Below the pieces are notes generated by a model. That model was not told the origin of the DNA. It was given only the letters and a program-made list of their open reading frames with translations, and did no database searches. The position numbers and the translations under genes were made by a program. From Methylocystis sp. MJC1 (GTDB lineage: Bacteria; Pseudomonadota; Alphaproteobacteria; Rhizobiales; Beijerinckiaceae), in the NCBI RefSeq assembly GCF_026427715.1, contig NZ_CP107558.1, forward strand, positions 1,339,001 through 1,403,000: a stretch of 64,000 bases of DNA, read 5' to 3'. This document shows, piece by piece, positions 14 to 14,583 of this stretch. Position 1 is the stretch's first letter. Each line of letters opens with the position of its first letter.

Positions 14-1870
14 CTAGAGAGCAACGGCGCCGGCGAGGATCTCCTCGTAAAGCGCCAAATCCAAGGCGGCATATATAGATCGCTCGCAAGACGCGAAAAA
101 GACAGCGTCGCCGATTGCGCGCGGATCGAAACCCTCTTCGGCAAGCTCAAGTTTGCGGTGCTTGAACGTCTCCGTGACCTGCAACGCATGCGATAGGCGC
201 AGGAAGAGCGGACGCGCATAGGCGGGCAGCTGCGCCGAAAGATGCGCATAGAGGCCTGCTACGTCGAAGCAGTCGTCCGCCACGATCGCCGCCATGCCGG
301 CGCGACCGTCGCGGCCGGGGACCTCCACGCCATAGACAGTGACGTCTAAGACACCGGGATAAGCGGCGATCGCCTGCGCGACCTCGGCCGTCGCAACATT
401 CTCGCCTTTCCAGCGGAAAGTATCGCCGACACGGTCGACAAAATAGAAGAAGCCGCGCGCATCGCGACGCATGAGGTCGCCGCTGCGCATCCAGGCGTCT
501 CCTTGCGTGAAGACGTCACGCAGGATTTTCTTTTCTGAAGCCGCGCGGTCGAGATAGCCCTCGAAGTCATTGGCGACGCGCGCGATGGCCTCGCCTGGCT
601 CGTCGGGCCCGCAGGCAACGCAGAAGCCTTCCGCGTCGCGCAGCGGCGCGTCGTTCTCGGCGTCATATCGCACGAGCTGGATCGCCCGGCTTGCCGCAAG
701 GAAGGAAGGGATGCGGCCGATGGCGCCGGGTTCGCCCTCGACATTGTAAAGCGAGAAATTGCTTTCCGTCGCTGCGTAGAATTCGAGTATGCGCGGAATG
801 GCGAAACGCTTCTGGAATACCGGCCAGACGTCCGGCCGCAGGCCATTGCCGACGGCGAGGCGCAGCCTATGTTTCGTCTCCGCTTCGCAGGGCGCTGCAT
901 GGGCGAGGTAGCGGCAGAGCTCGCCGATATATTGAAAAAGCGTGCAGCCGTAGTCGACAACGTCGTTCCAAAAGGCGCTCACCGAGAAGCGCTCGCGTAG
1001 CACGACCGAGCCGCCGCCCAGCAGCGTCGCCCAGATGGCGACGACGCCGCCGACCGAGTGATAGAGCGGCAGGCAATCATACATCCTGTCGTCGGGCGTG
1101 ACGTCGATCAGACCGCAAAACCACAGCGCCCAATTCATAATGCGGCGATGGGAGACAATCGCCGCCTTCGGCAGGCCGGTGGTGCCGGAGGTGTAGATGT
1201 AAAGCGCGTGATCCGAAAGCGTTGGGCGCGTCGCCTCATCGAGAACAAGGGGCGCGCTCGATTGCGCGACTATCTCGTTTTCGAGAGAGTCGTCGCAACG
1301 CACAAGGCGTGCATCGTCGCCGGCGAGCGCCTCGACACATTTCGCGTAATTCGTAACCGAGGCCAGGATCAAGCGCGGCGCGGCGATCTTGATGCAATGC
1401 GCGAGCGCTGGGCCGGCAAGATTATAATTGATGAGTGCGACCACGACGCCGATGCGTGTGAGCCCGAGCCAGATTGCGACGTAATCGGGCCTGCTCTCCA
1501 TGACAAGCGCGACAGCGTCGCCCTTGCGCAGACCGCGCGCCTGCGCCCAGCGCGCGTAGCGCCGGGAGCGCTCGGACAATTCGCGAAAACTGAATCCGCC
1601 GCCTTCAAAAAGGATCGCCGCGGCGTCGCCGCGCAACGCCACCATGTCGTCGAACGCGATAGCGAGCGTGCGATTGGGATCGCGCTCGATGGACGCGGAG
1701 AGCTTCAGAGCCCGCAACCAATCCTTGTTCGTCGAGCGCCCCGCGCCTTCCGCAAGTTCGCTTTTGGAAGGCCCCGCGCCCGCGCCGTAAGCCGTCATCT
1801 CTCGTCGTCGTCCGTTGAGAATGGTTAATGCGCGCCAATCGCGCAGGTCGTTCGCGATCCTATCGGACAT
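14..1870 (-). CDS. Very-long-chain acyl-CoA synthetase (FATP/FadD6-like)
   Basis: A 618-residue member of the ANL adenylating superfamily, closest in layout to fatty acid transport protein/very-long-chain acyl-CoA synthetases, which turn a fatty acid, ATP and CoA into acyl-CoA. The P-loop-like motif YTSGTTGLPKAA is at about residues 226-237, the A5-type EFYAATES at 363-370, the hinge region VGDTFRWKGENVAT at 481-494 and the C-terminal lysine motif TETFKHRK near 570. The first 50 residues look unconserved, so a later ATG (residue 25) may be the true start. It stands alone, divergent from metY. A role for this enzyme in the carrier-protein locus at 4.3-13.4 kb is possible but nothing ties them beyond proximity. 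Confidence 0.88.
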   Translation of the reverse strand: MSDRIANDLRDWRALTILNGRRREMTAYGAGAGPSKSELAEGAGRSTNKDWLRALKLSASIERDPNRTLAIAFDDMVALRGDAAAILFEGGGFSFRELSERSRRYARWAQARGLRKGDAVALVMESRPDYVAIWLGLTRIGVVVALINYNLAGPALAHCIKIAAPRLILASVTNYAKCVEALAGDDARLVRCDDSLENEIVAQSSAPLVLDEATRPTLSDHALYIYTSGTTGLPKAAIVSHRRIMNWALWFCGLIDVTPDDRMYDCLPLYHSVGGVVAIWATLLGGGSVVLRERFSVSAFWNDVVDYGCTLFQYIGELCRYLAHAAPCEAETKHRLRLAVGNGLRPDVWPVFQKRFAIPRILEFYAATESNFSLYNVEGEPGAIGRIPSFLAASRAIQLVRYDAENDAPLRDAEGFCVACGPDEPGEAIARVANDFEGYLDRAASEKKILRDVFTQGDAWMRSGDLMRRDARGFFYFVDRVGDTFRWKGENVATAEVAQAIAAYPGVLDVTVYGVEVPGRDGRAGMAAIVADDCFDVAGLYAHLSAQLPAYARPLFLRLSHALQVTETFKHRKLELAEEGFDPRAIGDAVFFASCERSIYAALDLALYEEILAGAVAL

Positions 1871-2038
1871 TCCCTGCGAAATCTCTACAAATGCAAAAGA
1901 ACCTTATTAAGCCTACCGGGCGCTTTTCGTCGCTGCGCGCGCGAAAACCGCATAAATCTTTAGGCGTTTTCTCTACGTCAATAGCCCAGCTTCACCCTCT
2001 CGACGATGCGGCCGGGCGCGCCGCAGGAGGCAAACCCA
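1871..2038 (+). promoter_or_regulatory. Structured 5' leader of metY
   Basis: The 168-bp gap upstream of metY can fold: gccta at 1911-1915 pairs with taggc at 1961-1965, enclosing an inner hairpin of ttttcg (1924-1929) with cgaaaa (1942-1947). Alphaproteobacterial metA/metY/metX leaders often carry SAM-sensing riboswitches, but I could not match this one convincingly to the SAM-II consensus. The metY ribosome binding site GCAGGAGG lies at 2023-2030. Confidence 0.35.
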
Positions 2039-3337
2039 ATGCGCAACGAAACGATAGCGGTGCATGGCGGCTTTGACGGCGATCCGGCGACGCGCGCGGT
2101 CGCGGTGCCGATCTATCAGACCGTCGCCTATGAGTTCGACAGCGCCGACCACGCGGCGGCGCTCTTCGATCTTGAAGAGGAGGGCTTCCGCTACAGCCGC
2201 ATTGCCAATCCGACCGTCGCCGTGCTGGAGAAGCGCGTCGCCCAGCTCGAGGGCGGGGTCGGCGCTCTGGCGGTCTCGACGGGGCAGGCGGCGCTCTATT
2301 ACGCTTTCGCCAATGTCGCCGATAGCGGCGGCAATATCGTCGCCGCGCCGACTCTTTACGGCACCACGCATACGCTGCTTCAGCATGTGATGGCGCGCCA
2401 GGGCGTGAAAGTTCGCTTTGCGGCGAGCGACTCTCCCGCTGATATGGCCGCGGCGATGGACGCTGACACCAAAGCGGTCTTCTGCGAAAGCGTCGGCAAT
2501 CCGGCCGGCAATATTTGCGACTTGGCCGAGATCGCCGAGGCCGCGCACGCCCATGGCGTGCCGCTCATCGTCGATAATACGGTGGCGACGCCGATCCTGT
2601 GGCGGCCCATCGAACATGGCGCAGACATCGTCGTTCATTCCATGACAAAGTTCATGGGCGGCCATGGCGCAACGCTTGGCGGGATCATCATCGACAGCGG
2701 ACGTTTTCCGTGGGCCAAATACCCCGAGCGGTTCCCGACCTTCAATGAGCCGGACGTCTCCTATCATGGCCTCGTCTATGCCGATCGCTTCAAAGAGAAC
2801 GCTTATGTCGCACGCGCCCGCAGCGTCTATCAGCGCACGACCGGCGCGGTGCTCGCGCCGTTGAACGCCTTTCTTCTCTTGCAGGGGTTGGAAACCGTCG
2901 CGTTGCGCGTCGAGCGCCATGTCGAGAATGCGCGAAAGGTCGCTGCGTTTTTGCGCGACGATCCGCGCGTCGCCTGGGTGAATTACGCCGGCTTCCCGGA
3001 GAGCCCCTATTACCCGCTCGCGCAGAAATATCTCGGCGGCCGCGTGCCCTCGCTCCTCACTTTCGGCGTAAAAGGCGGGCTCGAGGCCGGCAAGCGCGTC
3101 TATGACTCGCTGCGCATCATCAAGCGCCTCGTGAACATCGGCGACGCAAAGTCGCTCGCATGCCACCCCGCCTCGACGACGCACCGCCAAATGACGCCGG
3201 ACGAGCAGGCAAAGGCCGGGGTCTTGCCGGAGATGCTGCGCATCAGCGTCGGCATCGAGCACATAGACGACATCATCGAAGATCTGGACAATGCGCTTGC
3301 CTCCGTCAATGCGAGCATCGCCGAGGCGGCGGAATGA
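2039..3337 (+). CDS. metY: O-acetyl/O-succinylhomoserine sulfhydrylase
   Basis: A 432-residue PLP enzyme of the Cys/Met metabolism family (MetY type), which makes homocysteine directly from an activated homoserine and sulfide. The PLP lysine is K204 in VHSMTKFMGGHG; the N-terminal ETIAVHGGF, the ANPTV substrate motif and the SLACHPASTTH motif near the C-terminus are typical of O-acetylhomoserine sulfhydrylases. ATG 2039 is chosen because GCAGGAGG precedes it by 8 bases; an in-frame ATG at 2006 lacks such a site. Its stop overlaps the start of the next gene (ATGA), so the two are translationally coupled. Confidence 0.95.
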   Translation: MRNETIAVHGGFDGDPATRAVAVPIYQTVAYEFDSADHAAALFDLEEEGFRYSRIANPTVAVLEKRVAQLEGGVGALAVSTGQAALYYAFANVADSGGNIVAAPTLYGTTHTLLQHVMARQGVKVRFAASDSPADMAAAMDADTKAVFCESVGNPAGNICDLAEIAEAAHAHGVPLIVDNTVATPILWRPIEHGADIVVHSMTKFMGGHGATLGGIIIDSGRFPWAKYPERFPTFNEPDVSYHGLVYADRFKENAYVARARSVYQRTTGAVLAPLNAFLLLQGLETVALRVERHVENARKVAAFLRDDPRVAWVNYAGFPESPYYPLAQKYLGGRVPSLLTFGVKGGLEAGKRVYDSLRIIKRLVNIGDAKSLACHPASTTHRQMTPDEQAKAGVLPEMLRISVGIEHIDDIIEDLDNALASVNASIAEAAE

Positions 3338-4281
3338 CGTCGTTCTCTTTGCGCTCGCACGACGCCCTCGAAATCGCATTCGTCAATAACATGCCCGACC
3401 AAGCGCTCGCGGCGACGCGGGCGCAATTCGAGCGTCTCGTGCGCGGGGGCGCCGAGGGCCGCGAGATTAGCTGGCGTTGCTACGCGTTGCCGGGCCTGGA
3501 GCGCAGTGAAACGGCGCGCCGCTATTTGGCGCGCGACCATGAAGATATAGAGGCGCTATACAGGCGCGGCGCCGATGCGCTGATCGTCACCGGGTGCGAG
3601 CCCCGCGCAGCCCGCCTCGAGCACGAGCCATATTGGCCGCAGATTCAGACGCTCGTCGATTGGGCGCGTGCACATACCTTCTCGACTCTCTGGTCTTGCC
3701 TCGCAGCCCACGCTGCGGCGCTTCATCTTGCGGGCGTCGAACGCCGGCGAGTGACGAAAAAGATCAGCGGCGTCTACTCCTTCCAGCATCTCGCCGACGA
3801 TTGGACAGGGGAAAGAGCTGGGACTGCAATCTTGACGCCGCATTCGCGCTACAACGCGATCGACGCTGAAACGCTGGAACGCCGCGGATTCCAAATCGGC
3901 GCAGGCTCGCTGGAAGCCGGCGTTGATATGTTCTGGCGCGAAGAGCCCAGCCTCTTCGTTTTCCTGCAAGGTCATCCTGAATATGAGGCGGAGACTCTGC
4001 TGAAGGAATATCGCCGCGACGTGCTGCGCTATCTTTCCGGCGAGCGCGCGGAGTATCCTGAACAGCCCGAGAATTACTTCAGCGCCGTAACGTCCGAAAG
4101 GCTGTCGGCGCTACAAAGCCGCGTGCTTGAAAAGACCGAGAGCCATGCGGACGAGGCGCTCGCGGAAGTTCTTTCCGCCGAGAAATGCGCTCGACCCTGG
4201 GCCGATGACGCGCAGCGCCTCTACCGTTCCTGGATGAAGAATGTCGCGACCAGGGTCGAAGCCTTGCGTCACAGCGCCTGA
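3334..4281 (+). CDS. metA: Homoserine O-succinyl/acetyltransferase (MetA family)
   Basis: A 315-residue MetA-type homoserine acyltransferase, which activates homoserine for sulfhydrylation by the overlapping metY product. Seen are the nucleophile region STLWSCLAAHAAAL with C122, the KISGVYSF segment, PHSRYN, and the His-Glu pair in LQGHPEYEAETL (H214, E216). The family normally has CWGAQ at the nucleophile; here it is SCLAAH, a divergent version. Whether it uses succinyl- or acetyl-CoA cannot be told by eye. It starts inside the metY stop codon, and together they form a two-gene methionine operon. Confidence 0.88.
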   Translation: MTSFSLRSHDALEIAFVNNMPDQALAATRAQFERLVRGGAEGREISWRCYALPGLERSETARRYLARDHEDIEALYRRGADALIVTGCEPRAARLEHEPYWPQIQTLVDWARAHTFSTLWSCLAAHAAALHLAGVERRRVTKKISGVYSFQHLADDWTGERAGTAILTPHSRYNAIDAETLERRGFQIGAGSLEAGVDMFWREEPSLFVFLQGHPEYEAETLLKEYRRDVLRYLSGERAEYPEQPENYFSAVTSERLSALQSRVLEKTESHADEALAEVLSAEKCARPWADDAQRLYRSWMKNVATRVEALRHSA

Positions 4282-4323: not shown

Positions 4324-4572
4324 TCAATGGTCGAGATCGCGCACCAACGCTTCGATATTCCCGATGGTGCGAAAATTGGCCGGAACGAGTTTCGAGCTCG
4401 GAATCGTCAAATCGAATTCCGCCTCGATCGACAGCATCAGATTCACCATTTCCATCGACGTCATCCCAAGCTCCTGCAAATCCTGGTGCGGCGGGATCTG
4501 CGAAGCATTCTTTATGAATTGGGCGACGATGGCGTTGATGCGATCGATGGATTGAACCGTTAAGACGTCCAC
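4324..4572 (-). CDS. Acyl/aminoacyl carrier protein 1
   Basis: An 82-residue four-helix carrier protein. The phosphopantetheine serine is S39 in ELGMTSMEMVNLM, a variant of the usual DSL motif, and the C-terminal IEALVRDL helix is typical of acyl carrier proteins. GTG 4572 is preferred because GGAGG (complement of 4578-4582) lies 5 bases upstream; a TTG at 4602 would add 10 residues. It is divergent from the enzyme pair at 4769-6927. In Bradyrhizobium the amino acid:[carrier protein] ligase Bll0957 also acts on a neighbouring divergent carrier protein (Blr0956), so this is the obvious acceptor for the ligase at 5977. It is unlikely to be the housekeeping AcpP. Confidence 0.9.
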   Translation of the reverse strand: MDVLTVQSIDRINAIVAQFIKNASQIPPHQDLQELGMTSMEMVNLMLSIEAEFDLTIPSSKLVPANFRTIGNIEALVRDLDH

Positions 4573-4609
4573 GCTGTCCTCCAGAACACAGGTTTCTTCC
4601 AATTGACAA

Positions 4610-4621
4610 TTAGAATTCTAA
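4610..4621. promoter_or_regulatory. 12-bp palindrome in the divergent carrier protein/ACAD promoter region
   Basis: A perfect palindrome (ttagaattctaa) lies 37 bp upstream of the carrier protein start, within an unusually AT-rich 165-bp gap between two divergent genes. It could be an operator that controls both sides. No regulator gene sits next to it. Confidence 0.3.
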
Positions 4622-4768
4622 CGACTGCCTGTAAAAAGAAGCTGCGCAACAATACATAAAATCCATTTTATTAAGGCTGACCCTGACAATTTATTCGACA
4701 AAACGGATTGTTCAGAACTGCAGCCTAGCCTCCAACAGATCAGGCAAGGGTAAGTTGAAGAGGCATCC

Positions 4769-5977
4769 ATGTTGGCCGCTGAAATTTCAAAGGCGCAGGA
4801 AGATACCGAGGCGGGCGATGATTTTTCCGCTCGAATCGGATCAGCCGTCGCCGTCGCCGCAAAATTTGCCGACGCCGTCGATGAGGGCGCGCGCTTTCCG
4901 AGAGAGGCTTTCGATGAGCTGAAAGCACAACGGCTGCTTGGGATATTGCTACCGAAGCGATTTGGCGGCGAAGACCGCAACGTCGCCGAGGCCGCGCAGG
5001 TTTGTTATGCGCTCGGTCGCGTCTGTTCCTCGAGCGCGATGATTTATGCGATGCATGCCGCAAATGTCGCGTGCGTCATGATCCATGCGGGAAACAGCGA
5101 GAAGTTTCCATACTATCTTCGTCGCATTGGCGAAGAGCAGATGCTGATTGCCTCATCGACGACTGAAGGAAAAAACGGGGCCAATGTGCGCTCCAGCGCC
5201 TCGGCAATCATCGCTTCCGATGGCGGCGTTTCTCTCGATCGCGACGCCTCAGTGGTGTCCTATGGGGCGTCTGCCGACGCCATCGTGACAACCGCGCGCC
5301 GTTCGCCCGACTCTCTACCCAGCGACCAGGTGCTCGCGCTCTTCTTCAAGGAAGACTACACGCTCGAGCGCACGTCCAAATGGAACGTGATGGGCATGCG
5401 CGGCACGTGCAGCGAAGGTTTCCATCTCCTCGCAAAAGGAGAGCTCGAGCAGGTTCTCCCAGAGGCTTACGACAAGATTCACCGCCGCTCGATGGTGCCG
5501 GTGACACATCTGCTTTGGGCGGCCTGCTGGGCGGGCGTGGCGGCTGGCGCGGTGGAGCGCGCACAGAACTTCACGCGTAAAATCTCACGCGCCCAAAAAG
5601 GCGCCTTGCCGCCGGGCGCGCCCTTCGCAACGCAGGCGTCTCTCGCCCTCATGCAGCTGATCAACCTCGTCGATTCCTCGATCGCGGATTATCTCGGCAG
5701 GGCCGAAGAACCCGATACGCTCGACGAAATCTCCTTCCAGACTTCGCTCAACCTTTTGAAGGTGAGCGCCTCCGAAATAGCGATCTCGACGGTTATGCAT
5801 GCGTTCAATGCCTGCGGAATCGCGGGCTATCGCAGCGACGGCGAATTCAGCGTCTCGCGCCCGCTGAGAGATATTCTTTCGTCGTCGGTCATGATCAACA
5901 ACAATCGGATTCTTTCGAATGTGGCCTCGTCCTGCCTGATCGGCGGCGTGCCAGACTCGATCGTGAAGCCGAGATAA
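4769..5977 (+). CDS. Acyl-CoA-dehydrogenase-fold flavoprotein
   Basis: A 402-residue protein with the acyl-CoA dehydrogenase layout: an N-terminal helical domain (LLPKRFGGED near 60), a central beta domain with a SSTTEGKNGANV stretch, and a C-terminal helical domain with HAFNACGIAGYRSDGEFSVSR. In the classical enzymes a catalytic glutamate follows the RD pair by nine residues (YEGT); here RD is R367-D368 and the equivalent position reads VMINNNR, without glutamate. It may therefore be an oxidase or monooxygenase of this fold, or place its base elsewhere. Its stop overlaps the start of the amino acid:[carrier protein] ligase, so an aminoacyl-carrier-protein substrate is likely, by analogy with prolyl-carrier-protein oxidases. 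Confidence 0.85.
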   Translation: MLAAEISKAQEDTEAGDDFSARIGSAVAVAAKFADAVDEGARFPREAFDELKAQRLLGILLPKRFGGEDRNVAEAAQVCYALGRVCSSSAMIYAMHAANVACVMIHAGNSEKFPYYLRRIGEEQMLIASSTTEGKNGANVRSSASAIIASDGGVSLDRDASVVSYGASADAIVTTARRSPDSLPSDQVLALFFKEDYTLERTSKWNVMGMRGTCSEGFHLLAKGELEQVLPEAYDKIHRRSMVPVTHLLWAACWAGVAAGAVERAQNFTRKISRAQKGALPPGAPFATQASLALMQLINLVDSSIADYLGRAEEPDTLDEISFQTSLNLLKVSASEIAISTVMHAFNACGIAGYRSDGEFSVSRPLRDILSSSVMINNNRILSNVASSCLIGGVPDSIVKPR

Positions 5978-6927
5978 TGAAACAGCCTGGGGAAGATCGT
6001 GCGATGGGTAGGATGACGTGCGCAGATCCGGTGGCGAACAGCGACCAGACGATCCTCGATTATCTCTTTCGCCCGATGGGCGTTGACGGCGTTTACGCGC
6101 GCACGCGGCGTTATGAAGATGTCGTCGATGCGCTTCAAAGCCTGATTTCAAGACATCGCCCCGATGAAGCGGTCGTCTTTCGATTTCCACCGGTGATGAG
6201 TCTGAGGCAGCTCGAGAAGCAGGGCTACCTCAACAGTTTCCCTCAACTGCTCGGCTGCGTTTGCGCCCTCCATGGCACCGAGGCCGATGTCGCCGCCGCG
6301 GTGAACCGAGCCAAGGAAGGCGAAGATTGGACGCGAGGCGCGACTTCCGCCGGTCTCGTGTTGAGCCCGGCGGCCTGTTATCCGGTCTATCCTATCGCTG
6401 CGGAAAATGGGCCGGTCCCCGAAGAGGGTCTCACCTTCGATGTCGCTGCGGACTGCTTCCGTCACGAGCCATCGAAAGATTTGGACAGGCTGCAGTCATT
6501 TCGGATGCGTGAATTCGTTCGAATTGGCGCGCCCGCGCAGATCGTCGTCTTCCGCGAGCAGTGGATGAAAATCGCGGAGTCGATCGCCGAGTCGCTTCGG
6601 CTGCCATTTGTCTTCGATCGCGCCAGCGACCCATTCTTTGGCCGGATCGGCGTGTTGATGGCCGCGAACCAGATCGAGCAGGCTCTGAAATTCGAGCTTC
6701 TCATCCCCGTGCGCGCCGATAGCGCCCCGACAGCTTGCATGAGCTTCAACTACCATCGCGAGCATTTCGGCAAGACATGGGAGCTCGTCGATCAGCAGGG
6801 CGAATTGGCGCATTCTGGTTGCGTCGCTTTCGGCATCGACCGGCTGGCGCTTGCGCTCTTTGCGATGCATGGACTTAACGTCGAGGAATGGCCCGGCGAC
6901 GTGCAGGAAATTTTGCGTTTGAAATAA
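5977..6927 (+). CDS. Amino acid:[carrier protein] ligase (SerRS-like)
   Basis: A 316-residue stand-alone class-II aminoacyl-tRNA-synthetase-like catalytic core without a tRNA-binding domain, matching the amino acid:[carrier protein] ligases described in Bradyrhizobium japonicum (Bll0957). These activate a small amino acid with ATP and transfer it to the phosphopantetheine of a carrier protein. Candidate zinc ligands are C134 (SPAACYPVYP), E179 (FRMREFVRIG) and C282 (HSGCVAFGIDR). Their spacing (45 and 103) equals the C131/E176/C279 spacing I recall for Bll0957. Motif-2-like FRHEPSKDLDRL and motif-3-like GIDRLALALF are present. The start overlaps the upstream stop (TAATG); ATG 6004, with GGGGAAG before it, is an alternative. 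The amino acid specificity cannot be read. Confidence 0.92.
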   Translation: MKQPGEDRAMGRMTCADPVANSDQTILDYLFRPMGVDGVYARTRRYEDVVDALQSLISRHRPDEAVVFRFPPVMSLRQLEKQGYLNSFPQLLGCVCALHGTEADVAAAVNRAKEGEDWTRGATSAGLVLSPAACYPVYPIAAENGPVPEEGLTFDVAADCFRHEPSKDLDRLQSFRMREFVRIGAPAQIVVFREQWMKIAESIAESLRLPFVFDRASDPFFGRIGVLMAANQIEQALKFELLIPVRADSAPTACMSFNYHREHFGKTWELVDQQGELAHSGCVAFGIDRLALALFAMHGLNVEEWPGDVQEILRLK

Positions 6928-6946: not shown

Positions 6947-7408
6947 ATGAGCGGTGAGGACAAAATCGTTTTTTATGAGGGCAGGAATGTCGAAATGCGG
7001 CCTTGTCCGATCAACCCTGCTTGGGTGATCGACGGCGCTCCCGTTGCGCGCAATTTCATATTGTCTCGCAGCCTCGACAACTCTGCCACCACGCTGCTTT
7101 GGGACTGCACGAAGGGCGTGTTTAACTGGCACTATGACGTGGACGAGACGGTCTATGTGCTGGAGGGTTCGGTCGTCTTGCGCGACGATGACGGCGTGGA
7201 GCATCATCTCGGGCCGGGCGACCATGTGCTTTTCCGCGCAGGCTCGCACGCGGTTTGGACCATCGACGATTATGTGCGAAAAGTCGCGTTTTGCCGCACG
7301 CCGCTGCCTGCGCCTGTGATGTTTATGGCTCGGGTCATTCGGAAGCTTGCGCGCATGATGAAGCTTACGCCGGGCGCCAATGCGCCGGCAATGTTCAACG
7401 GCGCCTAA
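6947..7408 (+). CDS. Cupin-domain protein
   Basis: A 153-residue single-domain cupin of the Cupin_3/EutQ-like type. Metal ligand candidates are H62 and E67 in WHYDVDETVYVLEG, plus H101 in RAGSHAVWTI; the GPGDHVLFRAGSHAVW stretch is the second cupin motif. The C-terminal 40 residues are basic and hydrophobic. It lies 19 bp after the carrier-protein ligase with its own GGAAGGA site and 16 bp before the aminotransferase, in the same operon. The role in the pathway (isomerase, dioxygenase or regulator) is unknown. Confidence 0.8.
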   Translation: MSGEDKIVFYEGRNVEMRPCPINPAWVIDGAPVARNFILSRSLDNSATTLLWDCTKGVFNWHYDVDETVYVLEGSVVLRDDDGVEHHLGPGDHVLFRAGSHAVWTIDDYVRKVAFCRTPLPAPVMFMARVIRKLARMMKLTPGANAPAMFNGA

Positions 7409-7424
7409 GGAGAAGGAAACGACG

Positions 7425-8321
7425 ATGTCCTCTCCTGTTCCGCTACGTCAGGTCTCGCAGACATGGACATTTTTTCAGGGTCAATGGCGCGAGGGCAATA
7501 CGCCGATACTCGGCCCGCGGACACATGGGGCTTGGCTAGGCTCGATGGTGTTCGACGGCGCTCGGGCCTTCGAAGGCGTGACGCCAGATCTCGATCTGCA
7601 TCTTGCGCGCGTCAATAATTCCGCACGTGAAATGCTGCTGGATCCTTTGTTGTCGGTCGAAGAATGGCGCGCGCTTGTCGAAGAGGGGTTGAAGAAATTC
7701 GCCCCCGACGCCCCGCTTTATATTCGCCCGATGTATTGGGCGGAGGAGGGTTTCGGCGGGGGCGTTCGCTTCGAGCCGTCCTCGACCAATTGGTGCCTGA
7801 CGATCTACGAAACGCCGATGCCGGGTCCTAAGGGAGGCGCAGTGACGCTGTCGCCGTTCCGTCGGCCAACGGCGGAAACCGCGCCAGTCGGCGCCAAGGC
7901 GAGCTGCCATTACGCCAATGGGGCGCGGGCGTTGATCGAGGCGGCAAAGCGCGGCTTCGATAATTGCCTCATGCGCGACATGCTGGGCAATATCGCGGAA
8001 TTTGCAAATTCCAACGCTTTCCTCGCCAGGAATGGCGTGGTTTTCACGCCAGCGGCGAACGGAACCTTCTTGAATGGCGTCACGCGCCAACGCGTCATCG
8101 GACTGCTCCGCGCCGATGGCGTGGAGGTGATCGAAACGACGCTTAGCTATGACGACTTCCTCGGGGCTGACGAGATTTTCTCGACCGGCAATTTCCAAAA
8201 GGTGGCACCGATGTCACGCATCGATGACCGGGTTCTGGAGGCGGGCCCGATGTATAAGCAGGCTCGCGCGCTCTACTGGGACTTCGCACATTCGCGGACG
8301 CCGCTTCGCGCCGTTTCGTGA
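7425..8321 (+). CDS. Class IV aminotransferase (branched-chain type)
   Basis: A 298-residue fold-type IV PLP enzyme related to branched-chain amino acid aminotransferases and D-amino acid transaminases. The PLP lysine is K158 in GAKASCHYANG; GNIAEFANSNAFLARNG is the phosphate/cofactor-binding segment and RQRVIGLL follows it as in IlvE. ATG 7425 follows AAGGAGAAGGAA. It is the last gene of the operon that begins at 4769 and is followed by a strong terminator. It probably makes or consumes a 2-oxo acid for this locus; a housekeeping IlvE role is possible but less likely in this context. Confidence 0.88.
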   Translation: MSSPVPLRQVSQTWTFFQGQWREGNTPILGPRTHGAWLGSMVFDGARAFEGVTPDLDLHLARVNNSAREMLLDPLLSVEEWRALVEEGLKKFAPDAPLYIRPMYWAEEGFGGGVRFEPSSTNWCLTIYETPMPGPKGGAVTLSPFRRPTAETAPVGAKASCHYANGARALIEAAKRGFDNCLMRDMLGNIAEFANSNAFLARNGVVFTPAANGTFLNGVTRQRVIGLLRADGVEVIETTLSYDDFLGADEIFSTGNFQKVAPMSRIDDRVLEAGPMYKQARALYWDFAHSRTPLRAVS

Positions 8322-8368: not shown

Positions 8369-10042
8369 TTATTGGCGAGAAAACGCTTCGGCACGCAGCG
8401 CTGAGAGATTTGCGGTCGGCGTGATGCGATCGGGGTCCATCATCAAATGGATGATAGAGGGAAGCCCTGACGCGCGCGCGGCCTCGAAGGCTTCCGGAAA
8501 GTCCTGGGTGCGTTCGACGCGCGCGCCATATCCGCCGAAAGCGCGGGCATAGGCGGCGAAATCGGGATTGCGTAGATCCGTTCCGACCACGCGCGCGGGA
8601 TAATTGCGCTCCTGATGCATGCGGATCGTGCCATAGCTGGCGTTGTCGCAGACGACGACAATGATCGGCAGGTCGTATTGCACCGCCGTTGCGAATTCCT
8701 GGCCATTCATCAGAAAATCGCCATCTCCGTTGAGAGAGACGACCAGACGCTCGGGATAAAGCCGTTTGATCGCGACGGCCGCCGGCACGCCATATCCCAT
8801 CGTGGCCGAGGTCGGCGCGAAATGTGAATTATAGCTGCGGAAACGGAAATAGCGGTGAATCCATGACGCGTAATTTCCCGCGCCGTTGCAGATGACCGCG
8901 TCACTGGGCAGATGGTCCGAGAGCCAGATCATGGTCTGCGCCAGATCGACGTCGGCGGACGGCGCGAAGCTGCGCGAAAAGCCGAGATAGTCTTGGTGCG
9001 CCTGGCGGGTCTCTTCACGCCAGGGTCGGACGGCGGGCGGCTCTTGTTTCGCCAGCATTTCGATGAAAGCCTTTGGCGAGGCGTGAATGGCGAGCGTGGG
9101 CGCATAGACGCGGCCGAATTCCTCCCCCTGCGGATAAATATGGACGAAACGCGTTCGGGGCGCGGGAATATCGAGGAGCTTGTAGCCCTGAGAGGGAATT
9201 TCCCCCAGTCGCCCGCCGACGAGAACAAAGAGATCGCTCGCTCGGGCGCGGGCGACGAGCTTTGGATTGGCGGCAAGGCCGAGGTCGCCGGCGTAGCAAT
9301 CATGGAGAGGATCAAAGAGCGGCAGGCGTCGGTAGCTCGTCGCGACAGGCATGTCGAAAGCGCTTGCCCAATCCATCATGCGGCGGGACGCCGTTTCGTC
9401 CCAGCGCGTTCCGCCGAGGACGAATAAAGGACGCTTTGCCTCAGCGATCATTGTGGCGAGGGCGTCCATGGCCTCGGCTCCTGGCGCCGTCTCCACTGCT
9501 GCGGCAGGAGGGCAGGGGCGTGGTAGGACGCGTTCTTCGAGCATGTCTTTTGGCAAAGCGAGGGCGACGGGCCCCGGACGCCCGGCAAGCGCGACATGAA
9601 ACGCTCGCGAGACATATTCTGTCACGCGCGCGCCGTCATCGATCTCGGCCGTCCATTTGGTCTGTCCGGCGAACATTGCGCGGTAATCGACTTCCTGGAA
9701 AGCGCCGCGGTCACGATTGGAACGCTCGATCTGGCCGATGAACAAGATCATCGGCGTCGAGTCATGCTGTGCGATATGGACGCCGGCAAATGCGTTGGCG
9801 GCGCCGGGGCCGCGCGTGACGAAGCAAATGCCGGGGCGGCCGGTGGCCTTGCCATAGGCGTCCGCCATCATCGCGGCGCCGGCTTCGTTGCGGCAGACCG
9901 TGAGTTTGACGTTGCGTTCATAGCAGGCGTCGAGCACGGCGAGATAGCTTTCGCCAGGCACGCAGAAAATATGGTCGACACCATTGGCGATGAGCTGATC
10001 GACCAAGGCTTGCGCGGCGGAAATTTCAACAATGGCGTTCAT
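8369..10042 (-). CDS. Thiamine diphosphate-dependent enzyme (acetolactate-synthase-like)
   Basis: A 557-residue ThDP enzyme of the acetolactate synthase/2-oxo acid decarboxylase family. The ThDP-activating glutamate is E53 (CRNEAGAAMMADAYG), the magnesium/ThDP motif GDGDFLMNGQ begins at residue 439, and a central domain starts near residue 190. ATG 10042 is chosen because MNAIVEISAAQALVDQL aligns with the family N-terminus; the longer open frame overlaps the upstream gene. It is 7 bp downstream of the GNAT gene and probably co-transcribed. With the aminotransferase nearby it could decarboxylate, or carboligate, a 2-oxo acid. No IlvH-type regulatory subunit gene is adjacent, which argues against a housekeeping acetolactate synthase. 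Confidence 0.88.
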   Translation of the reverse strand: MNAIVEISAAQALVDQLIANGVDHIFCVPGESYLAVLDACYERNVKLTVCRNEAGAAMMADAYGKATGRPGICFVTRGPGAANAFAGVHIAQHDSTPMILFIGQIERSNRDRGAFQEVDYRAMFAGQTKWTAEIDDGARVTEYVSRAFHVALAGRPGPVALALPKDMLEERVLPRPCPPAAAVETAPGAEAMDALATMIAEAKRPLFVLGGTRWDETASRRMMDWASAFDMPVATSYRRLPLFDPLHDCYAGDLGLAANPKLVARARASDLFVLVGGRLGEIPSQGYKLLDIPAPRTRFVHIYPQGEEFGRVYAPTLAIHASPKAFIEMLAKQEPPAVRPWREETRQAHQDYLGFSRSFAPSADVDLAQTMIWLSDHLPSDAVICNGAGNYASWIHRYFRFRSYNSHFAPTSATMGYGVPAAVAIKRLYPERLVVSLNGDGDFLMNGQEFATAVQYDLPIIVVVCDNASYGTIRMHQERNYPARVVGTDLRNPDFAAYARAFGGYGARVERTQDFPEAFEAARASGLPSIIHLMMDPDRITPTANLSALRAEAFSRQ

Positions 10043-10049
10043 GCTATGC

Positions 10050-10919
10050 TCACGGTCCGAAGATGACGCTTTCGCAAAAGGCGAGATCGCCGAGCCGGGG
10101 GCGCTCGGGGCCTTTGAAATATTTGGGCCCGCGATCCGGGAGATAGATTCCGAAAAGGCCTGGAATCTTCTCTGTTGCGTCGAGAAGGACCGTGGGGTGG
10201 CCGCGTCGGAGCAGGTCGCGGCCCAAAGGCCCAGCGAAGCGTTGGAAGTCAGCAAGGTTGCGGCAGTAGATCAACTGCTGCGTGGGCACGAGGCCCTTCA
10301 ACACCCGGCGCGGCAGAAAGACGAAGGGATGCGCGTCCCGCTTTTCATGCACGATCAGCGCGAGGCAGCCGCGCTCGGCATGGGCGGTGAGGAGGGCGCG
10401 TTCTTGCGATGAAAGAGAGTCGCCATAATCGCGTAGCGCGTCGAAAGGTTTAACGCGGGCGTTGGCTGCCCAGCGCGAGAGCGCGGGAATCGTCAGCATC
10501 TGACCGTTGCAATAGCGACGGAATCCCTGCGCTTCGATCACACGCCAAGTGTGCGGCGCCGGCGACGTATTGATATAGGTGACGTCCCTATGGCGCACCG
10601 CAGCGGCGATGAGCAGCGAGGCGTAGCCGCGATAGGCCTCCTCGACATACCAGCTCGAGATATTGCAGCGAATTTTGTCCGCGCCGAGCTGGGTGAAGAT
10701 CATCAGGATGACGCCGACCGGCGCGCCCTCGTGCTCGAGGAGGTAGCCGAAACGTGGATAACCTGCGGGCGCATCGCGGCGCGCGAGCGCTTCGAGGGCG
10801 TGACTCCAATAATCGATCGTGCGCTCGGGAAAGCCTTTGGCCAGCAATTTGGCGAGCGCCGGCGCGTCGGGCTCATCGATCATTCGGCATCGAATGCGCG
10901 GCGTCGCTGGCTGAGTCAT
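10050..10919 (-). CDS. GNAT-family acyltransferase
   Basis: A 289-residue protein with an N-terminal GNAT-type acetyltransferase fold: VGVILMIF, then SSWYVEEAYRGYASLLIAAA in place of the acetyl-CoA loop, and INTSPAPHTWRVIEAQGF. The second half (from about residue 150) is less conserved and may be a second degenerate GNAT lobe. It leads the operon with the ThDP enzyme and is divergent from carrier protein 2. GNATs in such loci often transfer an acyl group from a carrier protein or CoA to an amine. The acceptor is unknown. Confidence 0.75.
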   Translation of the reverse strand: MTQPATPRIRCRMIDEPDAPALAKLLAKGFPERTIDYWSHALEALARRDAPAGYPRFGYLLEHEGAPVGVILMIFTQLGADKIRCNISSWYVEEAYRGYASLLIAAAVRHRDVTYINTSPAPHTWRVIEAQGFRRYCNGQMLTIPALSRWAANARVKPFDALRDYGDSLSSQERALLTAHAERGCLALIVHEKRDAHPFVFLPRRVLKGLVPTQQLIYCRNLADFQRFAGPLGRDLLRRGHPTVLLDATEKIPGLFGIYLPDRGPKYFKGPERPRLGDLAFCESVIFGP

Positions 10920-11023
10920 CTGGGCTTAACCTTCGTCATCGATCTTTGCGACATGGGCGAGGAATTGCTTACAAAACGACGATAGAAAGACCTTCTTAGC
11001 CGAAGATGAAAAGGCGAGTCTCG

Positions 11024-11272
11024 ATGAGCATAAGGTTAACAGTGCTTTCCGTCGTGGAAAACGTGGCCGCGGAGCAGGAAAAAAAGCTTGCGCCGCTCGA
11101 GAGCGACACGGTTCTTGCCGACTCTGGGCTAGATTCTCTGTGCTTTGCGATCATCGTCGCGCGTCTCGAAGATGCGCTCGGGGTCGATCCCTTCACAGCT
11201 TCCGAAGAGGTCTATTTTCCGGTCACCTTCGGCGATTTCGTCGCGCTTTATGAAAATGCAGCGACCGTTTGA
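11024..11272 (+). CDS. Acyl carrier protein 2
   Basis: An 82-residue carrier protein with the phosphopantetheine serine S38 in the classical DSGLDSLCFAIIVARLEDALG motif. ATG 11024 follows AAGGCGAG; ATG 11006 is an alternative. It overlaps the next gene, an AMP-forming ligase, so the two are translationally coupled and form a natural loading pair. It differs from carrier protein 1 around the serine (DSL rather than TSM), so the two probably serve different loading enzymes. Confidence 0.9.
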   Translation: MSIRLTVLSVVENVAAEQEKKLAPLESDTVLADSGLDSLCFAIIVARLEDALGVDPFTASEEVYFPVTFGDFVALYENAATV

Positions 11273-12632
11273 TCTGCGCGGTTTGGCGCGCGACTCCGTC
11301 TCTGATGGCGCCTGCGGTTTGCGGGCGCCAAATGGACAGGCGCTTTGGCGCGACGCGGTCCAGGGCACGATCTTTGGCGGCGGCAATTTGCTTGCCGGCA
11401 AATCGGTGCTTATCGGCGTATCGTCGCAATTCGACGCCGCGCTCGCCATGCTGGAGCTCGACGGGCTTGTCGCGCGCATGGTGGTCACGCCGCCGGATTT
11501 CACGACGGAGCGTCTCGCCTCGGCAATAGAGCAGGCGCAGGTCGAGGCCGTCATTTGTGACGACGACGGCAAGGATTTCGGCGTCGCGCTCCCGCGCGTT
11601 CGGGTGTCGGCGCTCGCGCCCGAGACAGTGCCGCGCCCGGCGCCGATCGAGACGGAATGGGTTCTCCCGACGTCCGGCACGACGGGGGCGCCGAAGCTTG
11701 TCGCACATCGTCTCGACGGGTTGCTCGGCACGGTTCGCGGGCGCGCCATAGGCGAGCCGGCGCCGGTTTGGGCGACCTTCTACGACATTCGCCGCTACGG
11801 CGGCATGCAGATCTTCCTGCGCGCGGCGTCGAGCGGCGCGACATTGCTGCTCACCGAGTCGAGCGAGTCTCTCGCCGATCATGTAACGCGCATGGCAGAG
11901 GCGGGCGTCACGCATCTCACGGGGACGCCGTCGCATTGGCGCCGTCTGCTGATGAGCCCTGACGCTGCGCGGATCAGCCCTAAATATGTGCGCCTTTCTG
12001 GTGAGATCGCAGACCGGGCCATCCTCGGCAATTTGGCCGTTGCCTACCCGGACGCAAAAATCATCCACGCCTATGCGTCAACGGAAGCGGGCGTCGGCTT
12101 CGAGGTGAGGGACGGGCGGGAAGGGTTCCCCGCCGCTTATCTCGATGGCGTTGGCGGCGTCGATATGCGCGTCGTCGACGGGTCCTTGCGCCTGCGCTCC
12201 CGACGCACGGCGGATCGCTATGTCGGCCGCGACGATCTCCGGCTGGCGGATGCGGAGGGTTTCGTCGACACGGATGATCTCGTCGAAAGAGTCGGCGATC
12301 GTTTTTTCTTCAAGGGGCGGCGCGCAGGAACGATCAACGTCGGCGGTCTGAAAGTTCACCCGGAGGAGGTCGAGCAGATCATTAATCTGCACGCTGCCGT
12401 GCGCATGTCGCTGGTGAAGGCGCGGCGCAATCCGATCACAGGCGATCTCATCGTCGCAGAAGTTATGCTCGCGGATAGCGATATCTCGACGGAGCAAAAG
12501 CGGGCGGTGAAAGAAGAAATCCTCCTTGCCTGCCGCGCGCGGCTCGAACGTCACAAGGTCCCCGTTTCGATCGACTTCGTCTCGTCGTTCGCCATGTCGG
12601 CGGGCGGCAAACTGCTGCGGGGGAAAGCTTGA
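11250..12632 (+). CDS. AMP-forming acyl/aryl-[carrier protein] ligase
   Basis: An ANL-family adenylating enzyme of about 460 residues. Motif A3 is PTSGTTGAPKLVAHR near residue 140, A5 is HAYASTEAGVGF, A7/A8 is TDDLVERVGDRFFFKGRRAGTINVGG, and the C-terminal lysine lies in SAGGKLLRGK. It is somewhat short at the N-terminus, like stand-alone domains that load carrier proteins. ATG 11250 or 11256 starts inside the end of the carrier protein gene. It should adenylate a carboxylic acid and load carrier protein 2; the acid is not predictable by eye. Its stop overlaps the next start (ATGA). Confidence 0.88.
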   Translation: MKMQRPFDLRGLARDSVSDGACGLRAPNGQALWRDAVQGTIFGGGNLLAGKSVLIGVSSQFDAALAMLELDGLVARMVVTPPDFTTERLASAIEQAQVEAVICDDDGKDFGVALPRVRVSALAPETVPRPAPIETEWVLPTSGTTGAPKLVAHRLDGLLGTVRGRAIGEPAPVWATFYDIRRYGGMQIFLRAASSGATLLLTESSESLADHVTRMAEAGVTHLTGTPSHWRRLLMSPDAARISPKYVRLSGEIADRAILGNLAVAYPDAKIIHAYASTEAGVGFEVRDGREGFPAAYLDGVGGVDMRVVDGSLRLRSRRTADRYVGRDDLRLADAEGFVDTDDLVERVGDRFFFKGRRAGTINVGGLKVHPEEVEQIINLHAAVRMSLVKARRNPITGDLIVAEVMLADSDISTEQKRAVKEEILLACRARLERHKVPVSIDFVSSFAMSAGGKLLRGKA

Positions 12633-13357
12633 TGCGCAATGTGATCGTCACCGGCGGCAGTCGTGGTCTCGGCTTGGCGATTTCCCGTCGCCTTGTCGCC
12701 GACGGCTTTCACGTCGTCGCTGTGGCGCGAAAGCCAAGCGAGGCTCTCGAAGAGGAGATCGCTCGCGCATCGGGCGCGCTTTCCTTCGCTGCGCTCGATC
12801 TATCTGACGTCGACGCGATCCCGGATTTCGTCTTACGGCTCAAGAAGGAGTTCGGCGCGCCTTATGGGCTCGTCAATAATGCTGGGCTCGGCACGGAAGG
12901 CTTGCTCGCCACCATGCATAATTCGCAGATCGAGATGCTCACCCGCGTAAATGTGACTGCGCCGATCGTTCTGACGAAATATGTCGTGCGCAATATGATG
13001 TCGGCGGGCGCGGGCGGTCGCATCGTGAATATGTCCTCCATCATCGCCTCGACCGGCTACAACGCGCTTTCGGTCTATGGCGCGACGAAAGCGGCGCTCA
13101 TTGGCTTCACCAAGTCTCTGTCGCGCGAAGTCGGGCGGATGGGCGTCACCGTCAATGCGGTAGCGCCGGGTTTCGTCGAGACGGAGATGACGGCTTCGCT
13201 TGGCGACGCGGATCGCGGTAAAATTGCCGCACGCGCGGCCTTGCGCAGGTTGGCGATGCCGGAGGATGTCGCGAACGCGGTCTCTTTCCTGCTCGACGAC
13301 AAGGCGCGCAACATTACCGGAACGGTGGTGACGGTGGATGCGGGGGCAACGGCGTGA
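12632..13357 (+). CDS. 3-oxoacyl-[carrier protein] reductase-like SDR
   Basis: A 241-residue classical short-chain dehydrogenase/reductase with the FabG layout. The cofactor motif is TGGSRGLG (residues 7-14), NNAG lies at 82-85, catalytic S136, Y149 and K153 are present (YGATK), and the C-terminus ends ITGTVVTVDAG as in FabG. It is translationally coupled to the ligase gene, so it likely reduces a keto group on a substrate held by carrier protein 2. It is the last gene of the locus; a terminator lies 120 bp downstream. Confidence 0.92.
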   Translation: MRNVIVTGGSRGLGLAISRRLVADGFHVVAVARKPSEALEEEIARASGALSFAALDLSDVDAIPDFVLRLKKEFGAPYGLVNNAGLGTEGLLATMHNSQIEMLTRVNVTAPIVLTKYVVRNMMSAGAGGRIVNMSSIIASTGYNALSVYGATKAALIGFTKSLSREVGRMGVTVNAVAPGFVETEMTASLGDADRGKIAARAALRRLAMPEDVANAVSFLLDDKARNITGTVVTVDAGATA

Positions 13358-14166: not shown

Positions 14167-14583
14167 TCATCCCGCCGGCGTAAAGGATTCCGTGCGCGCC
14201 AGGCGCAGAACCTCGAGCCTGATCCTGTCGCCATGGCAGGGGCGCTGCGGGCGCGTGGGCGGCTCGGCGCACCAGCAGCGTAAGGCAATTTTCTCGCCCC
14301 TGCGCAATCGATACGCGATCTTTTCGATTTCTCGAGTCTTTGGGCCGCGTTCGGCGAGATCGCAATCGAGATCGCGTTCGTAGGCGGCGATCACGCGCAG
14401 CCGCTCCTGCATGTCTCGATGGTCGCGAAGCACATGCGGATTGCCGAGAATCGGATTGCTACGATCCACGTCGATAATTGTTTCGTCGGGGGCCGCCTGG
14501 AGCCCTCCTTTGCGCTTGGAAACAACTCGGATTCGCGCCCCATAATCGGTGGGTGGTTTGCTGGATTTGAAGAGATCGTCCAA
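14167..14583 (-). CDS. DUF4326-domain protein
   Basis: A 138-residue protein with the DUF4326 hallmarks: VDRSNPILGNP in the N-terminal half and the C-terminal ALRCWCAEPPTRPQRPCHGDRI, corresponding to the family's CWC..P..CHGD signature. The Cys/His pattern suggests metal or nucleic acid binding, but the function is unknown. The start is a TTG at 14583, supported by AGGAG 8 bases upstream. Such proteins are common in phages and in islands. Confidence 0.75.
   Translation of the reverse strand: MDDLFKSSKPPTDYGARIRVVSKRKGGLQAAPDETIIDVDRSNPILGNPHVLRDHRDMQERLRVIAAYERDLDCDLAERGPKTREIEKIAYRLRRGEKIALRCWCAEPPTRPQRPCHGDRIRLEVLRLARTESFTPAG

Follow-up and report, generated by a model that had tools for sequence, protein, structure and literature searches.

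A stand-alone seryl-tRNA synthetase-like amino acid:[carrier protein] ligase of Methylocystis sp. MJC1, its carrier protein and an acyl-CoA dehydrogenase-fold enzyme are part of a co-inherited 13-gene set

The window analyzed here is a stretch of 64,000 nucleotides from Methylocystis sp. MJC1 (assembly GCF_026427715.1, contig NZ_CP107558.1, positions 1,339,001 to 1,403,000 of the forward strand), whose genome comprises 4.54 Mb in four contigs. Close to its start lie a ligase that resembles the catalytic core of seryl-tRNA synthetase (SerRS) and is predicted to load an amino acid onto a carrier protein, the carrier protein itself (ACP1) and a flavoenzyme with the acyl-CoA dehydrogenase (ACAD) fold. 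This trio is part of a co-inherited set of 13 genes, the other ten of which flank it. The three genes are as follows:

4324..4602, minus strand: ACP1, carrier protein of the ligase (PP-binding, 2.7e-10; a later start codon may be the true one)
4769..5977, plus strand: ACAD-fold flavoenzyme with changed catalytic-base positions (Pfam Acyl-CoA_dh_N, 2.3e-12; structure model and Foldseek)
5977..6927, plus strand: SerRS-like amino acid:[carrier protein] ligase, type B (316 amino acids; matches to NF005479 and Bll0957; C134, E179 and C282)

A preliminary description of this DNA had recognized a stand-alone SerRS-like core at 5977-6927, with three candidate zinc ligands spaced as in Bll0957 of Bradyrhizobium, and both points are borne out. 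The ligase scores 434.6 bits against the NCBIfam model NF005479 ('amino acid--[acyl-carrier-protein] ligase'; cut-off, 357), and its match to type-2 SerRS is confined to the C-terminal core (3w3s residues 309-507), i.e., the catalytic core without the tRNA-binding domain. Residues 19-315 align with residues 36-332 of the Bll0957 chain (3mey) over 297 residues without a gap (E 1.5e-121), and C134, E179 and C282 fall at a constant offset on the Cys, Glu and Cys that we take to be the zinc ligands of Bll0957. All three residues are invariant in the 92 ligases aligned (60 of type A, 19 of type B and 13 of type C, leaving out two fragments of less than 250 amino acids, L101 and L154). In the tree of these 92 sequences, type B (support 0.95) holds the window ligase together with the Bll0957-like genes, and the remoter type C falls into more than one clade under midpoint rooting. 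Judged by sequence, the window ligase is an ortholog of Bll0957. Ligases of this family load glycine or alanine according to PMC5370406, and a 2022 review gives their biological role as unknown.

The family was surveyed in three overlapping samples. At order level, 297 genomes gave 70 matches, 64 of which exceeded the cut-off; the corresponding figures are 13 and 7 for 289 genomes at class level and 44 and 28 for 398 genomes at phylum level. Neighborhoods were taken from all 70 matching genomes of the order (69 plus the window). Of the genomes new at class and phylum level, 7 of 10 and 12 of 23, respectively, contributed a further 20 loci, with every new genome above the ligase cut-off included; three named plasmids were added, and genes within loci were counted by tblastn. 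Next to the ligase gene, one encoding the ACAD-fold enzyme is present in 59 of 60 type-A loci, in all 19 of type B and in none of the 13 of type C, so that the two are neighbors in 78 of the 79 A and B loci combined. The carrier gene has the same direction in all 60 type-A loci, and 17 of the 19 type-B loci have it divergent; no carrier was found in the type-B loci L044 and L045. In the window, ACP1 is divergent from the ACAD-fold gene, the TAA stop of which overlaps the ATG of the ligase by one base, and six loci (L063, L064, L067, L069, L070 and L145) likewise have a carrier divergent from an ACAD-ligase-GNAT row, the ligase of L069 matching Bll0957 at 712.9 bits. The gene order first described, with the carrier divergent as in Bradyrhizobium and an ACAD-like gene overlapping the ligase start, is thus confirmed. 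As a side observation, the ligase of L136 (genome G426), alone among those of type A, has neither an ACAD-fold gene nor a DUF1839 gene recognized next to it; it has retained its carrier.

The best match of ACP1 among PDB entries is 'Aminoacyl carrier protein 1' (4h2s; 5.5e-14), the next best standing at 6.3e-4. In B. diazoefficiens, bll0957 and bll0958, the latter encoding the ACAD-fold protein, are neighbors by locus tag. PMC10888616 lists both among the genes whose transcript and protein levels increase in a phaR mutant, each 3.0-fold in the first column of the table, which fits a joint role. The MJC1 genome has one ACPS/phosphopantetheinyl-transferase match (G000:C1:424232-424513, 71.5 bits), a single enzyme that would serve both carriers of the gene set unless a divergent one has been missed.

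The remaining ten genes of the set are listed below, bit scores being given against the cut-off of the model. FadD, MetY and the homoserine O-acyltransferase-like gene (HTS) lie on one side of the trio and the other seven on the opposite side:

14..1870, minus strand: FadD, long-chain-acyl-CoA synthetase (PRK08279, 718 versus 625 bits; recurs with the set)
2006..3337, plus strand: MetY, O-acetylhomoserine sulfhydrylase family (TIGR01326, 585 versus 495.1 bits; adjoins HTS, also in linked loci)
3334..4281, plus strand: HTS, homoserine O-acyltransferase (MetA-like) paralogue (PRK05368, 350.5 versus 358 bits; co-occurs with type B)
6947..7408, plus strand: cupin, EutQ-like (Pfam; recurs with the set)
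7425..8321, plus strand: AT4, class-IV aminotransferase (PRK13356, 462.6 versus 262 bits; recurs with the set)
8369..10042, minus strand: thiamine pyrophosphate (TPP) enzyme, acetolactate-synthase-like (PRK08199, 833 versus 539 bits; recurs with the set)
10050..10919, minus strand: GNAT-fold acyltransferase, tandem type (best matches are tandem GNATs)
11006..11272, plus strand: ACP2, second carrier protein (PP-binding, 4.6e-5; adjoins AMPL and SDR in relatives)
11256..12632, plus strand: AMPL, small stand-alone AMP-forming ligase (AMP-binding, 1.5e-18; start uncertain)
12629..13357, plus strand: SDR reductase, FabG-like (adh_short, 2.4e-51; adjoins AMPL in relatives)

The GNAT assignment comes from a structure model (predicted local distance difference test, pLDDT, 90.2), the Pfam search of this protein having returned no match; a second copy, 43% identical, lies on another contig of the genome with no set members nearby (L178 9740-10576, G000:C2). 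MetY stays below the cut-off of the narrower PRK06084 model (622 versus 790 bits). Like the window HTS, that of L138 is below the PRK05368 cut-off (346.6 bits), and part of a Bradyrhizobium-like copy (L164) reaches 427.2; all 7 linked copies examined retain the catalytic Cys and the GHPEY motif, the roles of which we presume. Downstream of the set, a DUF4326 protein (14170-14583, minus strand) shows no apparent link to it.

The set is inherited together without being confined to one locus. In Methylocystis sp. Sn-Cys (L002, a single locus from the ligase contig scan), the ligase is 87% identical and the gene row the same, and much of the row is found again, with its genes rearranged, in members of other families and, with L138, of another order. 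Not each gene was sought in each genome; members are spread over one to three loci per genome, yet they co-occur. Away from the ligase locus of the same genome lie AT4, FadD, MetY and HTS in G106 and G070; FadD, HTS, MetY, the cupin, AT4 and the TPP enzyme in G196 and G272; TPP, GNAT, ACP2, AMPL, SDR and FadD in G147 and G042; and FadD-ACP2-AMPL-SDR and MetY-HTS groups in G035 and G112, while in G218 the set is split over three loci. An esterase-like gene (HSL), which is outside the window block, joins the set in L039-L042, L138, L170 and L174.

Co-inheritance is most evident for AMPL, which was found at E 1e-40 or better in 16 of 16 genomes with a type-B ligase versus 2 of the 281 others in the order sample (Fisher p 1.3e-24, the related genomes not being independent). 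Five best first-look candidates were scored per genome, so a miss is possible; for 19 genomes in which all candidates were scored, the outcome was the same. Among 19 genomes picked by us (14 with type-B ligases and 5 others), HTS is present in 14 of 14 versus 0 of 5, and AMPL and GNAT each in 14 of 14 versus 1 of 5. Two genomes have AMPL and no type-B ligase, namely G255, whose ligase is of type A, and G188, in which no ligase was matched; both carry ACP2, AMPL, SDR, GNAT and FadD, indicating that the set consists of at least two separable modules. Blocks of these five genes that lack a type-B ligase span 8767-13794 of L188 and 9023-14062 of L160.

The preliminary description expected the unit to oxidize or otherwise change the aminoacyl-thioester, an expectation that needs changing with respect to the type of oxidation. 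The model of the ACAD-fold protein (pLDDT 92.1) has the acyl-CoA dehydrogenase fold, yet the two positions that we take to be those of the catalytic Glu (the C-terminal one was also seen aligned) are occupied by I376 at the usual and T246 at the alternative site. In all 42 sequences compared, position 376 is Ile or Val and position 246 is Ser, Ala, Thr or Cys, with Glu at neither. Since both known base positions are changed, oxidation of the acyl-CoA dehydrogenase type is not supported and ordinary dehydrogenation appears doubtful from the sequence; a different change of the thioester may still take place. His247 is invariant in the 42 sequences. W205..G209-M210-R211..T213..S215 is invariant as well and is shared with TdsC. 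Foldseek placed TdsC/DszC (4e-17) ahead of ACADs (2e-16) by a small margin. Six relatives have a linked gene for a flavin reductase; in the MJC1 genome, no match to it was obtained at E 1e-10, other reductase families not having been searched. The name 'acyl-CoA dehydrogenase' was rejected as proof of dehydrogenation on account of the changed Glu positions. An ACAD-fold family that lacks the usual catalytic base nevertheless stays with the ligase.

Collectively, these observations suggest a pathway. The gene identities, the retained and lost catalytic residues, the linkage and the co-inheritance come from computation, and from these we infer the amino acid, the reaction of the ACAD-fold enzyme, the sequence of steps and the product with its destination. 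The ligase would very likely activate glycine (or alanine) with ATP and attach it as a thioester to the phosphopantetheine arm of ACP1, and the ACAD-fold flavoenzyme would probably alter the amino acid in its ACP1-bound state, flavin-dependent hydroxylation or amine oxidation being somewhat better candidates than alpha,beta-dehydrogenation. These steps would constitute one branch of the 13-gene pathway. In the others, a homoserine-type amino acid carrying a substituent would come from HTS and MetY, and a second acyl group, carrier-bound and reduced, from AMPL, ACP2 and SDR; attachment of an acyl group would fall to FadD and the tandem GNAT. The pathway as a whole is put forward tentatively, with a little less than an even chance of being right, and its most plausible product, a decoration of a cell-surface glycan or glycolipid, more tentatively still.

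The suggestion of a surface product comes from the surroundings of the ligase genes. Of ten recurrent neighbor families, eight have Pfam matches, and every one of the eight is of a polysaccharide kind (two glycosyltransferases, Wzx, Wzy, a Wzz-like protein, WecG, an initiating sugar transferase and GH5). Eleven probes, drawn from the ligase loci themselves, gave a match in 33 of 57 loci of type A (excluding three on plasmids) and in 7 of 19 of type B, against none of 20 control regions, for which fixed positions were taken in 20 of these genomes. Type-A ligases thus often lie amid polysaccharide genes, so that their product may be a surface-glycan decoration; DUF1839 occurs in 59 of 60 type-A loci and no type-B locus, and 57 of the 60 type-A loci have a GH2-like gene. 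When each type was searched solely with probes taken from the other, the matches fell to 6 of 57 for type A (p 0.15) and 4 of 19 for type B (p 0.047), versus 0 of 20 controls. No probe matched in the first 16.4 kb of the window, in L002 or in L043, and a glycan destination for the window set is an extrapolation.

If the ACAD-fold enzyme were a true dehydrogenase after all, it would produce a dehydro- or iminoacyl-ACP1, as PigA and RedW do from prolyl or CaeB1 and ColB1 from cysteinyl substrates, and the product would be small and diffusible. We consider this unlikely: Glu372 is reported as the likely base of CaeB1, whereas the corresponding sites are changed throughout the 42 sequences here; the NCBIfam models of PigA (37.6 versus 500) and RedW (33.6 versus 650) are far from being reached; and glycine lacks the beta carbon that alpha,beta-dehydrogenation requires. 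Alternatively, ACP2, AMPL, SDR, GNAT and FadD may form a sphingolipid-type set for a membrane lipid to which the ligase branch contributes the amino acid head. Their likeness to the bacterial sphingolipid acyl-carrier, acyl-ligase, reductase and N-acyltransferase genes is assumed by us, FadD passes the long-chain-acyl-CoA synthetase model, and the five genes stand as a block of their own in L188 and L160. Yet no serine-palmitoyltransferase-like gene was recognized among the annotated set genes, no dedicated search having been made, and a GNAT relative adjoins a GINT1-like gene amid polysaccharide genes on two plasmids; a membrane lipid is an unlikely product. On those plasmids, of Roseateles (L155 11965-14330) and Shinella (L156 11965-14342), the GNAT relative directly precedes the GINT1-like gene, beside glycosyltransferase and lipopolysaccharide genes, and the rest of the set is absent from these stretches.

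Least probable by far is a chance neighborhood, in which MetY and HTS are ordinary methionine genes amid unrelated metabolism. It would accord with the MetY score above the general family cut-off (585 versus 495) and with the retained HTS motifs. However, 18 of 19 genomes have a MetX match of 468-490 bits elsewhere (the 500-bit cut-off of the model is reached by none of these matches nor by any of 14 named control genomes), and the remaining one, G186, has an HTS of 427.6 bits elsewhere; hence, from sequence comparison, the HTS of the set seems not to be a housekeeping gene. Furthermore, the MJC1 genome has five Cys/Met-PLP (pyridoxal phosphate) genes above the cut-off, and HTS and AMPL both track the type-B ligase. 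A role as plain methionine genes was rejected on the MetX and HTS copies elsewhere and the five Cys/Met-PLP genes.

The tentatively favored 13-gene pathway can be drawn more boldly, in a version that is itself rather unlikely to be correct in full: glycine held on ACP1 would be N- or C-hydroxylated by the base-less ACAD-fold monooxygenase, joined with a homoserine-derived unit and the second carrier-bound acyl group, and transferred by the tandem GNAT to a surface glycan. Across the ligase family, three transferase types would then lead to one end, the papain-like DUF1839, the tandem GNAT and the DltB-like MBOAT, which are unrelated, all serving aminoacyl-type envelope decoration, and such decoration would supply the physiological role that these ligases have so far lacked.

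In this study, the observations of the preliminary description have been confirmed and its interpretation partly supported and enlarged. The family is split by its partners (DUF1839 and GH2, the 13-gene set, or a DltB-like MBOAT), and through co-inherited partner genes the purpose of amino acid:[carrier protein] ligases becomes testable. Sharp predictions follow, namely a mass shift of ACP1, a product common to the ligase, HTS and AMPL, and an envelope glycan destination for type A. Each enzyme comes from a known family or fold. Searches of open-licence literature in PubMed Central (PMC) yielded no recognized description of the gene combination or its product; they covered few subscription papers, so absence from print is not established.

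Several known systems share parts of it. DszC and TdsC have the ACAD fold, the best Foldseek E-values by that narrow margin and the W..GMR.T.S residues in common with the window enzyme, which differs in its score against the NCBIfam DszC model (43.6 versus a cut-off of 850, not reached) and in that no flavin reductase partner was found in its genome at E 1e-10 with the family searched. CaeB1/ColB1 and PigA/RedW are alike in fold and in the carrier-bound amino acid as the (expected) substrate; they differ from the window enzyme in the replacement of its catalytic Glu and, for PigA/RedW, in model scores. DltABCD resembles the proposed scheme as an idea only, that of an aminoacyl carrier protein feeding envelope modification. 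Type-C ligases adjoin DltB-like MBOATs in 9 of 15 loci (L046, L047, L048, L049, L100, L101 and L146; also L147 and L151), accompanied in 7 by a 743-amino-acid protein devoid of a Pfam match and in 9 by an ACP-like gene (a weak one in two cases), and possibly represent a Dlt-like system loaded by a SerRS-like enzyme in place of DltA; by contrast, the window ligase has no adjacent MBOAT and belongs to a superfamily other than that of DltA. In the Bll0957 system, the ligase matches that of the window without gaps and with the C/E/C residues kept, the solved carrier (4h2s) is the best match of ACP1, and the Bradyrhizobium-like loci share the divergent carrier. What distinguishes the window is that HTS, MetY and the AMPL module lie in one gene block with the ligase, whereas in the Bradyrhizobium-like genomes G035 and G112 they reside elsewhere in the genome.
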